Shown: one piece after another, positions 4,241 through 33,935 of the stretch
How positions within the stretch are numbered: position 1 is the stretch's first letter
Layout of the letters: each line of letters opens with the position of its first letter
NCBI GenBank assembly: GCA_964036195.1
Contig: OZ038453.1
Location: 23,646,352 to 23,710,351 of the forward strand
Length of the DNA: 64,000 nt
Reading direction: 5' to 3'
Source of the DNA: Sphaerolaimus hirsutus
Taxonomy: Eukaryota > Nematoda > Chromadorea > Monhysterida > Sphaerolaimidae
The notes under the pieces: model-generated
The model's input: only the letters and a program-made list of their open reading frames with translations
What the model was told of the DNA's origin: nothing
Database searches by the model: none
Program-made: the position numbers and the translations under genes

Positions 4241-5670
4241 AAGGGAATTGGAAGAGTGCCAAAAAGGCCGTTTTTGTGTGTAAATTGGCACATATCCCGT
4301 AGCCATTGCTGCCACAGGGAGGAGTTTTGTGATTTTGTAGGGTGTAGGAGTAGGTTTAGGGAGTAGGTTCGCGGTAGGTGCCGCGGTTTGTGATTTGTGG
4401 CGCGTATAATTGTGTTTATTTGTATCTAATTACCCACCTAACCCCCTCAGTTTGTGATAATTGCGTGTGTTTGTGATTGTAATTTTATGTTCGCACTTAT
4501 TTCTGTGTTTCGCACGTATTTCTGTGTTTGCACTTTTGCACTTTGTGTTTACTTCGCGTTAGTCGATTGGTACGCTGGCCTGGACGAGCTCACATTTGAG
4601 CAAACACGGTTGTTTTTGTGTTTTTGGTCCTTTTGCAGTTGTTTGCTGTTCTCGAGTAGCTGTGGATTTACTTGGCATGTTTCCAATGGTATCACGTTTA
4701 GTTTTGGAGAGTTTCGCTCAGTTTAGGCACTTTTAAGCTGTTAGTTTGTGCGTTTACATTTGGTAGGTTACTGTAGGTATTGTACTTTCTAGTTTGGCAC
4801 AGTTCCAAGTTTGGTTTCATTAGCTGGCTGAGTGCCAGAAGAAAGGTGTTCCTGAATGTCAAGTCACCATCCCCTTGTTCCATTAAAAAGTAACCCTTGT
4901 GGTACATGGCTTGGTTCAGCTGGAGTCACTTATTTTCGGTACATTTTTGAATGCACTTCCGTGATTGGTTGGCTCCGCCCAGCTGCAAACCAGTTTTGGG
5001 CACTTCAAACCCATAAAAGAGAGCCCCAATCCAGTGATTGTCATCAGTCTATTCAATCCAATTCTAATTACTAAGTCAGTGATTTACCAGCTGAAATGAG
5101 CCTACCCTTGGTTATTCATTCTCTGCTAACTCTGGCATAGGCCTTCTCTTCCCTCTGCACGGTGACATTTAGGTTCACAGGGGCAGGAGTGGCCACACGG
5201 AGCTGCCGGTATAGCTAAGATAGGGTGTTGTATGGGGAGAACCCACCATCTGTGATGCTTACTGTACGTCTGGACCTCTGTGGACTTGTTTTAGGCGTAG
5301 TATAAGCTGAAGTAGGCTGTACACCTATTGACTCGCTCTAGGCTTTCGTAAGGGCCCAAACAGTTGTGCTACGTCGTCGTAGATTACTTTTGATAGTGGT
5401 GCTGTGCCAAGCTAGGACTTAAGTACCTGGACTTGTGTGGTCTCTTACCAGTGTACCGTACTGCTATCCTCACCTGTCTGGTTTAGCTTATATGACCCTG
5501 AGTGTTATTTAGTCATTTTTATGTTAATGTGTTGATTTGGAAAGTGGAAAGGTAAATTGGAAATATTCAAGTACTTTGGAAACTTTAATTGCAACGTTAT
5601 TCGAGAAACCCAATTAGTGTAATTCAAGCTTACTCCGGTGCAACTATTCTCTACTTAATCTATTGGCTCA
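4241..5670. other. Stretch without recognised gene
   Basis: Only short open frames (for example 4856-5074). T-rich with many GTTTGTG runs; it could be an intron leading to the acceptor at 5676. Confidence 0.4.
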
Positions 5671-5718
5671 TTCCAGCTAGTGGATCTAATTATTTCTGCT
5701 CTAAATTGTGAAATCATA

Positions 5719-6651
5719 ATGGAAGTTGCTTTTATTTGCTTGTATTCGAGTGATGTTCAGTTGTCGGTTTTCGAAGCGTGGGCAAATCTCGTTTCTGTTT
5801 CTGAGAGTGCGCCAAGTTCCGAAGGTTTCTGGGAGGTTGAGGATTTGGAAATGGGCCCTGTTTTTGATAGTTTTGAACCCGTGTCGGAATTGTTTCAAAC
5901 TCAGCGAAGGGCCACGTATGCGGAAAAGGTTCAGGGCGCTGGTGATTTCGTTGTCGATTCTGTCTTGCCCAATGGCGAAGTAATTTGTGATGCTTCTCAG
6001 CAGTGGTTGTTTGATCACTTGATCATGGAGCCAGCTTTTATTGAGCCCGGAATTTGTGGTGTTTTTGAGAAGACCGCTGAAAGGCTGAAGAAAACTGTGC
6101 AGCCTAGAAACCTTTGGTATTTGGTGGGTAAGAGAGGGAAATTACAGCCGCACGTTATTCGTCGCAAGCTTTTGCAATTTGCGCGACCGGACTTTGTTAG
6201 CTGTGGCAACCAAGTAGACCGAAAAGCTCAGAAGCCTACGTCCTTCGGAGTAGCTAGGTCGAAAGGCACCAAGCTGGTGAAGTTTGGCAGACAGGTTCCC
6301 TGCGCACGCGGCAAGCGTAGGGCTTGTAGGGCAGTTATTGATCGTCCGGTGGACATTATGTCGCTTGTTGAATTGTCGGAATTGTGTGACTATTTGGTTG
6401 GCGTGTTGCCATCGTTTGTCGTTCCACACGTGCAAAAGGTAACCAAGTTCCCTGCTAGGTGCTGTACATTTGGCGTAATTAGGCAGGATGGACTACATGA
6501 GCGCATCGTTGAAAGTTCTGACGGAATTGGACACTGTCCAAGGTGTTGCTATTTGGCCCGCCATGATAAGGTTGTAGTACCCGGGGGTCCATTGTATTAT
6601 ATTGGAGACAATGTTGCAAGACCGGGGGGGTTATATTATTATATACGGTAG
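5719..6651 (+). CDS. Unrecognised long open frame, 310 aa
   Basis: The longest open frame in the window, open from a good splice acceptor (TTCCAG at 5671-5676); the first ATG is at 5719. Composition is balanced and more GC-rich than its surroundings, which suggests real coding. I recognise no domain. Visible features are a TYAEKVQ tract, basic segments (KRRACR), and a possible zinc-binding cluster near the end (GHCPRCCYLARHD). The last 25 codons run through a G-rich palindromic repeat and are probably not genuine. One of the fixed-loop hairpins (6217-6260) lies inside the frame. It could be a retroelement gag/ORF1-like remnant or a lineage-specific gene. Confidence 0.35.
   Translation: MEVAFICLYSSDVQLSVFEAWANLVSVSESAPSSEGFWEVEDLEMGPVFDSFEPVSELFQTQRRATYAEKVQGAGDFVVDSVLPNGEVICDASQQWLFDHLIMEPAFIEPGICGVFEKTAERLKKTVQPRNLWYLVGKRGKLQPHVIRRKLLQFARPDFVSCGNQVDRKAQKPTSFGVARSKGTKLVKFGRQVPCARGKRRACRAVIDRPVDIMSLVELSELCDYLVGVLPSFVVPHVQKVTKFPARCCTFGVIRQDGLHERIVESSDGIGHCPRCCYLARHDKVVVPGGPLYYIGDNVARPGGLYYYIR
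6217..6260 (+). other. Fixed-loop hairpin 13, inside the 310-aa frame
   Basis: Stems GACC/GGTC, GCTC/GAGtAGC; inner GAAG/CTTC; loop CCTACGTC. Confidence 0.7.
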
Positions 6652-6707: not shown

Positions 6708-8456
6708 CGAAGGAAAACAAAACTTGCACGGTCTGCGACATTTTTTTGACTGACGCACAAAAGAAATTGGCCATGGCGAATGGTGTGAAATTGGGGGAAC
6801 TCTTGGATCTACACGACGCCCCAACTAATGGTGGGTGTTTGTATACTCGATGGACATCACACTTAGTATGGAAACCTACCATCAGGGGTCTCCTAGGGGG
6901 GCTGGGGGGCCATTTTACCCCCCCCCCCCAAATCCCCCAGCAATCTATCTATCCCGGAGGCAAATTTTTTGGCTATCTATCCCCAAAATCGGCCAGCTAT
7001 CTACCTATCTGGAGCGATTTTTGAGAAATTTCGCCCCAATTTTCACTCAAAATCGCCAATTTTCGTACCATTTTTTACTTTTTCACCTTCAAAATCGCGA
7101 CTTTTGCTAATACACGTGTTTACATACCTATTTTTGACCATTTTTAACCTATATTAGCTACGTTTAACTTGTTTTTAGTGATTTTTCCCCATTCTGCCTT
7201 CTATGCATTGAAAAAGCCTATATATTTTGCCCCCGCGAACCCCCACCCCAGAAAAATTTTCAGCTATACTCGGCAGACACGATACTCTACAAACAGATAG
7301 GAGTTATGTCTTTGGCTGGCAGACGGCCAGCCGAGAACTTATGGAAGACGTGATGACGACGAAGTGATGACGTCATGATAGTGTTTCCTCCGGAAAATGT
7401 ACAGCGTAATGTCATCCGAGTATATCTAACCCTCCGGAGGAGCGATTTGCTATCTATCCAGCCCCCGCGAGGGCCAAAATCTTGGAGACCCCCTGCATAA
7501 CCCATCTGAATAATGAACCAAAAATTAACAGTTTTTCATCATAATATTTCATTTTCAGAATGGGATAATTAATGATGAAATTTACCGCCTGATATTATTC
7601 ATTAAATTATGGTAGGATTTTGTAGGATCCGACACTGCGTGTCTTCATGAAGACACTTCAAGGCACTTCACACACCCATTTTCGCTGTTTATGTGTGCAT
7701 TCTTCTGAACGAAACACTCTATCGTGACGTTATCATTAGCAAAAAATGTTACAAAAAGGAAAAATCATTTCAGGGACGAAACATGTTGGTTATACTAGAC
7801 TCCGCCTTTTTCTTTTTTCTTTTTTATATTTTTTTTTGGTGAAAGCGAGTGCATAAGTATTGCGTTGGTGCTTAAGACATAAGTATGTGCGGATGCATAC
7901 TTTGCTGTCCGCTGAGTTTTTTTAAGTATTTTACATAAATTCACATCTTCTCACTTCCCAGCCATTCGAATTTGTCCTGACAACGTGATAATTTCGCAAC
8001 CGGAACTTTTGACATCTGGCTACACGGACAACAACCCAAGTTCGGACAACTCTGGCAAATGTGCCCACGGCGGGGCGGTGGACAAGCGCAGGTGCCACTC
8101 CCGCACCCTGTGAAATGCACTGGAAAATGTGTCATGTAAAATGTCATAAATGTTTATGTCAAATCTCAAATGTCATGCAAAGTGTCAAAAGTCATGTTGA
8201 ATGTCATGCAACGTGTCAAAAAGTTTTTTAAAATTCCATGTAAAATGACAATTTTTATGCAAAGTGTCTAAAGTCATGTCAAGTACCTTTTTGGCACATG
8301 ACACTTTACAGGACATTTTACAGGGTCTGGGAGTGCCCCCAGCACCGAAGTGCCCCCTTATGGTGGAATTAATAAGGATTCAAATTATTTTCTCTACGCG
8401 TCACATTTTCACTTGCACAATGAAAGTGCAAAGTTGGCGCATGAAGCCACTTTGGT
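6708..8456 (+). CDS. VWA7-like protein, three internal exons (fragment)
   Basis: Fragment of a von Willebrand factor A domain-containing protein 7-like gene. Exons are 6708-6830 (or 6782), 7962-8091 and 8343-8456. Exon 1 follows a strong polypyrimidine-AG and carries TCTVCD. Exon 2 encodes ICPDNVIISQPELLTSGY and then GKCAHGG. Exon 3 encodes PPYGGINKDS and a HFHLHNESAKLAHEAT stretch. The LTSGY / GKCxHGG / GGINKDS order is the family's conserved block, which precedes the VWA domain. Exons 2 and 3 join in frame (AG|C) once the 251-nt MITE between them is removed. The last donor is a strong GTGAGT at 8457. I could not find the VWA domain downstream, where 8.5-12 kb is transposon, nor the N-terminal part upstream. 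It may be a broken gene or one with very distant exons. Confidence 0.72.
6883..7495. mobile_element. CAGGGGTCTCC element
   Basis: Same TIR family as 36582-37885. It is inserted in an AT-rich element whose arms (ACACTTAGTATGGAAACC, GGTAGGATTTTG) recur at about 52200-52380 and 59640-59800; a TATACTCGG element is nested inside. Confidence 0.75.
8092..8342 (+). mobile_element. Introner-family MITE as intron of the VWA7-like gene
   Basis: 251 bp. Starts GTGCCACTCCCGCACCCTG and ends CAGGGTCTGGGAGTGCCCCCAG, with internal TGTCATGTAAAATGTCAT-type repeats. Flanked by CAG on both sides. Exon frame is continuous across it (AG|C). Confidence 0.85.
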
Positions 8457-9586
8457 GTGAGTTTTTTGGGAGTGGTTTTTTCGATGACAGAAAGTTTTTG
8501 TTTGTCTGTCTGTTTATTGTTTGGTTTTCAGAAATTGTGAAAACGTAAAAAAATCGTGACTTTTTATAAAGAGCCATCCATCGGCGAACAACAAAACTGT
8601 GTAAAACTCATCAACTTTTTCTGGAGATATCGAGTTTTCAAGGATTTTACATCGAAATTCATGACGAAACTTGACTGAATTTTTTTTCACTAAAAAATGC
8701 AAATTCTAGCAAATTTTAAAAAATACTTTTCCGCACAGATTTCTGCGTGATCTGCGCTCCTCTGTAAACGACACCCAATTCGGAATACTCCTGGGTCTTC
8801 TCAGGAGCACCGCCCCTGGGAAACTAGTGCAAGTTTATTTGATTTTTGGTGTCATTGCAGTTTCTTCATTGTGGTCTGGCTATGTCAGTTTTACATTTGG
8901 CGATGTCTTATACCTTTAAAAAATTGGTTGATTTTTTTTTGTACTTTTAGATGAATACTGATATTTTCTTTATTACTAATTGATTACTTTTGTGTATTTT
9001 TCTATTTACTCGCAGAAACACAATTCTACCTAAATATTGTAAATATTCCTTATTATTTACTACTTCGTTCTGCATATTAGCTTTTACTAATTTGCTTGCA
9101 TTTTTCATTTTTTTACAATTTTGTGTGGCATGGCAAAACGTCAAAGAATCAATGTAAAATTTTGCGTTTCCATGCCGACCGGAGATTTTTCGACGGGTTT
9201 TTATATGTTTCTTACAGGATCAATTCCGCATGTTTGGATGTAGAGGGAAATGGCACGAGGGAAATTTTTCGTGGGGCTTATTCGAGTATAAGTACTTCTT
9301 CTCTGATCAGTTCTTTTTACTAATGTCTTCTCGGTTGGAAGTTGTGATTTGTGTTGGTGGTATTCTGTGATAATTCAGTTTTGTGTTTATTGTCTTTATT
9401 AAAATTCGCGCGCTTGACTATACTTAAACTCAACTTGGTTACCGTATTTCCTCGAAGTACCCCCCCCCCTTGAATTAACCCCCCAGGTGTTTTCGAGCTG
9501 AGGAAAAAATAACCCCTCCCCTCGAAATACCCCCCTCTTGAATGATGTACATTGTGTATTTATTGGGGTCGAAACTCATCGCAACT

Positions 9587-27681: not shown

Positions 27682-33935
<6,254 letters not shown>

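Follow-up and report, generated by a model that had tools for sequence, protein, structure and literature searches.

The window analysed here, a 64,000-nt stretch of the genome of the nematode Sphaerolaimus hirsutus, contains exons of a VWA7 gene, two of which are separated by a transposable element. The features of the locus are as follows.

6708..6838, + strand: VWA7 coding exon lying upstream (KENKTCTVC...), 3' limit approximate; tblastn to paralogues, acceptor TTTTCAG
7962..8091, + strand: VWA7_N exon 5' of the element; Pfam VWA7_N 137-176, acceptor CCCAG
8089..8091, + strand: target-site duplication CAG, copy 1, the end of the exon; from the sequence
8092..8339, + strand: 248-bp fold-back MITE (putative introner); terminal inverted repeats, hairpin, genome-wide relatives
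8092..8093, + strand: putative 5' splice site GT, from the terminal inverted repeat; in-frame join
8340..8342, + strand: target-site duplication CAG, copy 2, the putative 3' splice site; from the sequence
8343..8456, + strand: VWA7_N exon 3' of the element; Pfam VWA7_N 180-213, donor GTGAGT at 8457
8739..8832, + strand: next VWA7 exon (FLRDLRSSVNDTQFGILLGLL...), 3' limit approximate; tblastn to paralogues, acceptor CGCACAG

An inverted-repeat element within VWA7

The element at 8092-8339 is a 248-bp inverted-repeat (fold-back) MITE with CAG on both sides. It starts at 8092 with GTGCCACTCCC and ends at 8339 with GAGTGCCCC; its ends read GTGCCACTCCCGCACCCTGTGAAATG and, on the opposite strand, GGGGCACTCCCAGACCCTGTAAAATG. 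In computed folding, the hairpin pairing both ends on the transcript strand reaches -79.1 kcal/mol (z -5.7). A sequence-only reading of the window had placed a 251-bp element exactly between two coding halves; the flush position stands, but the transposon itself covers 8092-8339, with the final CAG as target duplication. The GT...AG interval (8092-8342) is 251 nt long, not a multiple of three, and the element, if retained in VWA7, brings stops in all three frames. The same reading had rightly joined the flanking codons in frame: 8091 to 8343 gives AG|C (Ser) within a single open frame. Its account of the splice bases, with GT taken from the terminal inverted repeat and AG from the CAG duplicate, agrees with this locus and is met again in other genes. 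On its intronic side, the putative donor reads GTGCCA, a poor match to the donor consensus GTRAGT.

With 8092-8342 removed, the product matches positions 137-213 of the Pfam VWA7_N profile in one stretch (2.1e-19, 70.3 bits), compared with 29.9 and 31.1 bits for the halves taken separately. The exons nearby begin after acceptors of the ordinary kind. The frame runs on over the 8456/8739 junction (ATL-V-FLRDLR), and the exon at 6708..6838 shows 70% amino acid identity to a tandem paralogue on contig C4 and 44% to a paralogue on contig C1 (tblastn). A profile search of the genome with PF25107 gave seven matches. A large protein database returned no homologues of the joined VWA7 piece. The window also holds a 330-aa open reading frame at 5659-6651, with a related stretch on its minus strand also found at locus L017, a duplication between VWA7 copies. 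Further along, at 31523-31987 on the minus strand, an open reading frame with a glutathione-reductase-like motif was spotted by eye in the ORF list.

The paralogues bear on the age of the insertion. In the C1 copy (around 20395.9 kb of that contig, locus L020) the exon is unbroken at the element site, reading GKCSHGGAIDKMSTERKPLGGINKD uninterrupted and aligning without gaps to GKCAHGGAVDKRSTEVPPYGGINKD of the window. Unlike either C4 copy, it contains a short ordinary intron, placed 37 nt upstream of the position homologous to the insertion, and intron gain and loss in VWA7 is therefore only partly resolved. The sequence-only reading had raised an old intron at the same position as an objection to a new insertion; the C1 paralogue has none there, as a single intronless case in one diverged paralogue, with another intron 37 nt off, rather than in distant orthologues. 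The tandem C4 copy, 40 kb upstream, carries the same element at the same base; it is 379 nt long there, apparently owing to a second element nested inside. Between the joined exons of the two C4 copies there are 10 synonymous and 2 nonsynonymous differences (dS 0.214, dN 0.011), and between C4 and C1 dN is 0.20 with synonymous sites saturated. The joined VWA7 frame is under purifying selection. On the simplest reading, the element would have inserted after the C1/C4 split and before the tandem duplication.

A repeated family with CWG target sites

The 11-base end GTGCCACTCCC occurs 3054 times in the 348-Mb genome, against 33 occurrences of its reversed control, and a 23-base end with its CAG (CAG|GTGCCACTCCCRGACCCTGT) occurs 631 times against none; these counts exclude chance for the element ends. 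The window copy shares only the first 11 bases of the 23-base pattern and differs after them.

As a sample we took the first 90 of 100 listed CAG|GTGCCACTCCCRGACCCTGT places, all on contigs C1 and C2, with the left CAG and the GTGC end imposed by the search pattern. The right end was followed by CAG in 57 of the 90 and overlapped a CAG by one C in nine more, leaving 24 without a clean GT...AG element. The 66 places resolved as GT...CAG elements came down to 54 once 12 repeated-flank loci were dropped, and to 53 distinct ones if L125, a further copy of the L120 group, is set aside. Further examples of the CWG target-site duplication, with CAG or CTG on both sides, were also found. Forty copies of 150-215 nt have a median pairwise identity of 82% and a consensus of 193 nt including the CAG; the copy in the window exceeds this length and has a less regular structure. 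The arms of the consensus are complementary over the 90 nt compared, except at nucleotides 2 and 4: the donor side begins GTGC (as imposed by the pattern), and the acceptor side, which was not imposed, has GGGG, read as CCCC.

This asymmetry allows a comparison of polarity. If splicing protects genic copies, an excess of CAG is expected at GT ends and of CTG at GGGG ends. Genome-wide, there are 631 CAG|GTGC, 540 CTG|GTGC, 329 CAG|GGGG and 468 CTG|GGGG ends, which amounts to an excess of the spliceable polarity (odds ratio 1.66, p 4e-8; p 0.008 with the counts quartered for duplicated loci).

At one place (G000:C4:881754-982272), ten CAG|GGGGCACTCCC ends follow one another on a single strand at intervals of roughly 7-15 kb. 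This series is perhaps a tandem array of a larger unit containing one element each.

Genes interrupted and reading frames

For 42 of the 54 elements we compared the joined translations, covering part of the open frames, with Pfam or PDB sequences at a cut-off of E 0.001. A match ran in frame across the junction residue in 11 of the 42, and the other 31 had no spanning match. Together with VWA7, the 11 matches represent different, unrelated protein families, listed here with the span of the match and the junction residue.

Carn_acyltransf, 4-86; junction 48, within LST|S
Prp8, 17-125; junction 76, within KTEDPD|LPAFYYDP
TRPC, 13-100; junction 73
Acid lipase (Pfam), 5-42; junction 25
PLC, 11-95; junction 62; PDB match, 4e-5
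COMM, 56-113; junction 75
DUF229, 50-134; junction 60; below the Pfam curated cut-off
PAN_1, 48-103; junction 66; below the Pfam curated cut-off
KxDL, 9-59; junction 36
PRMT5_TIM, 10-83; junction 58
Class I peroxidase, 47-96; junction 76

No gap falls at the junction in the printed alignments of Prp8, TRPC, CROT and acid lipase. The PLC locus additionally has two Pfam matches below the cut-off, one on each side of the junction. As an antisense control, one frame was scanned at each of 10 of the 11 matched loci; none gave a match below 0.01, and one reached 0.091. Matches at two loci, CAP_GLY (L088) and Tho1 (L093), fell short of spanning their junctions and were left uncounted, as were those with E above 0.001, such as DUF4686 at L120 (0.023). 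The Prp8 exon pair is present in three copies in the assembly (L079, L080 and L081, at C1:22.18-22.24 Mb), each with the element; they differ at 7 of 198 nt in the element and 7 of 450 nt downstream, the ungapped upstream comparison being out of register.

The peroxidase match (L118, C2:10270600-10271650) comes from a gene for a class I haem peroxidase (PF00141, 3.9e-8), and such peroxidases are unusual in an animal. Among other coding sequences, COX1 on contig C762 contains 14 TGA codons; these, like the VWA7 and TRPC homology, point to an animal.

We also looked at composition and open frames around all 54. Flank GC is 0.55 and 0.53 within 50 bp on the two sides, about 0.40 and 0.37 at 200-250 bp, and 0.37-0.43 beyond 200 bp overall, a peak the size of an exon. 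The elements themselves have stops in all three frames in 51 of 54 cases. Joint open frames of at least 30 codons on both sides were found in 38 of the 54 in the sense direction, 23 in antisense and 5 at a pseudo-junction 300 bp upstream; the remaining 16 have no joint sense frame of 30 codons. Antisense frames of this length are something that GC-rich DNA permits. The fairest test keeps the flanks and breaks their pairing: each upstream flank was paired with a random downstream flank in 2000 shuffles. A common frame of at least 35 codons on each side was present in 35 of the 54 true pairs, against a shuffled mean of 24.7 (sd 2.4), and none of the shuffles reached the true value. The same held at every threshold from 30 to 45 codons, and at 20, 25 and 50 codons the true value was reached by 3, 4 and 4 of the 2000. 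This is evidence that the element interrupts the reading frame in phase. Copies starting with GG had a 30-codon joint frame in 1 of 6 cases, compared with 36 of 51 GT copies, but the two sets were collected differently (one of the six is the element nested within the tandem copy of VWA7) and we do not lean on this difference.

Probable origin of the putative introns and relation to known elements

Introners are a leading explanation for sudden intron gain. In the parts of the 2022 survey that define them, they are repeated introns derived from non-autonomous elements, often with terminal inverted repeats and target-site duplications; the element brings one splice site and co-opts its partner from the target, usually leaving mRNA length unchanged (Gozashti et al. 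2022, PMC9860276). The case drawn in Fig. 2C of that paper carries its 5' site and co-opts its 3' site, and the S. hirsutus element would likewise carry the 5' site and take the 3' site from its target. Where the survey's text turns to animals and land plants, it reports introners from two groups only, both animals, with copepods named (PMC9860276). Compared with the introners described there, and leaving aside any overlap with the survey's tables, the S. hirsutus family differs in its 3-bp CWG target and its near-perfect palindrome (PMC9860276).

These features resemble those of a known group of transposons. According to the relevant portions of its description, the NuwaI group of PHIS (PIF/Harbinger-ISL2EU-Spy) elements, reported from animals only, has a CWG target-site duplication and a terminal inverted repeat of 12-61 bp that usually starts with GGG, and was defined from transposase-bearing elements (PMC4482050). 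The family shares the CWG duplication, and one of its ends is GGGG, the other being GTGC (imposed by the search pattern); in contrast to the NuwaI repeats, complementarity between the arms of its consensus extends over about 90 nt of each. The CWG target and the GGG-type end point to the NuwaI group, as far as that group is characterised in these portions. An autonomous NuwaI copy would be expected to encode a DDE transposase and a Myb/SANT ORF between such ends. The genome contains at least 163 matches to DDE_Tnp_4 (PF13359), well over 100 of them with nearly equal score and each with a span about 190 bp in excess of what the matched profile requires; they represent an abundant Harbinger-type family. 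Around one of these loci (L132), no transposase with the element's ends was found in 3633 bases, a stretch possibly short of that transposon's own ends.

A recent mass intron gain in an animal has also been described in the copepod Eurytemora affinis, in a text that names no transposon; the donors there are GA or GG, and AG is obligatory before noncanonical donors (PMC5714493). The likeness would be in a recent mass gain and in the AG before the donor, whereas the donors differ, being noncanonical in E. affinis and GT here. The 329 CAG|GGGG ends of the present family would need GG donors like those of E. affinis to be spliced. In the introner and transposon literature compared, we recognised no report of this CWG introner family; the 2022 tables and a 2025 survey lie outside that comparison, and its absence is thus unproven.

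The 631 copies, the in-frame matches across junctions, the excess of true over shuffled pairing and the excess of spliceable polarity lead us to regard this, on the evidence of the genome assembly, as an introner family, a known kind of element, with a CWG target like that of NuwaI transposons. The view of the VWA7 element as an introner, already taken in the sequence-only reading, gains support from the in-frame join, the recurrence in unrelated genes and the C1 exon that is intronless at the site.

MITEs are common in introns, and the element might instead have landed in an older intron at this site and come to fill it after erosion, making no new intron. The C1 intron 37 nt upstream does indicate that this part of the gene can hold introns. 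However, both ends of the element are flush with the coding halves, all the putative splice bases come from the terminal inverted repeat or the target-site duplication, unrelated genes show the same flush arrangement with no remnant of an earlier intron, and in the C1 paralogue the site is intronless; we consider an older intron very unlikely. It seems still less probable, indeed extremely so, that the element is retained or mis-spliced and disrupts its gene, the C4 VWA7 copies being decaying pseudogenes. One of two C4 copies could be lost, and the nearest upstream VWA7_N exon match that possibly belongs to the window copy is more than 30 kb away (C4:23621916). Against decay, the dN and dS values given above come from two copies that both carry the element, and a Prp8 gene, probably not a dispensable one, shows this arrangement too, even though its exon pair is present three times.

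A preference of the family for GC-rich, exon-like DNA or open chromatin, with flanks that merely look coding and most copies unspliced, would account for the long antisense joint frames, and the CAG|GT was fixed beforehand by our search pattern. Against it stand the in-frame homology across 11 junctions, the true pairing above shuffled pairing and the excess of one polarity, and it too seems very improbable. We return to the introner interpretation: very probably, the element at 8092-8339 is a copy of a largely palindromic, non-autonomous MITE whose insertion into CWG brings its own intron.

Such an intron could arise as follows. The MITE would insert into CWG and duplicate the triplet, which would then read CAG on one strand and one only. 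There, the end of the element would supply GT directly after CAG, creating an exon end and a donor, and the second CAG would serve as acceptor. The spliceosome would then remove the element together with one CAG, restoring the frame with no bases gained or lost. For a symmetric element this CAG|GT rule would hold in either orientation, while for asymmetric copies orientation would matter too. Mobilisation in trans was presumably by a PHIS-type (NuwaI-like) transposase.

We are evenly divided on a broader proposal, namely that a CWG-targeting, NuwaI-like palindromic transposon seeds hundreds of introns in an animal, that, given the near-perfect symmetry of the element, the target base W, more than orientation, sets the spliceable strand, and that the GTGC/GGGG asymmetry looks like early donor/acceptor specialisation. 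If true, hundreds of copies in an animal would follow a legible rule in which the target triplet makes both splice junctions, and intron birth, the splicing of hairpin introns and intron loss could be traced in genes under as much constraint as Prp8. In this genome, the emergence of new introns may be readable. Extrapolating from two contigs (11 of 42 scanned elements, from the 54 resolved among 90 places), roughly 100 introns or more may be expected among the 631 exact copies on the strength of recognisable protein matches alone, and copies that deviate from the 23-base pattern, such as that in the window, would be additional.
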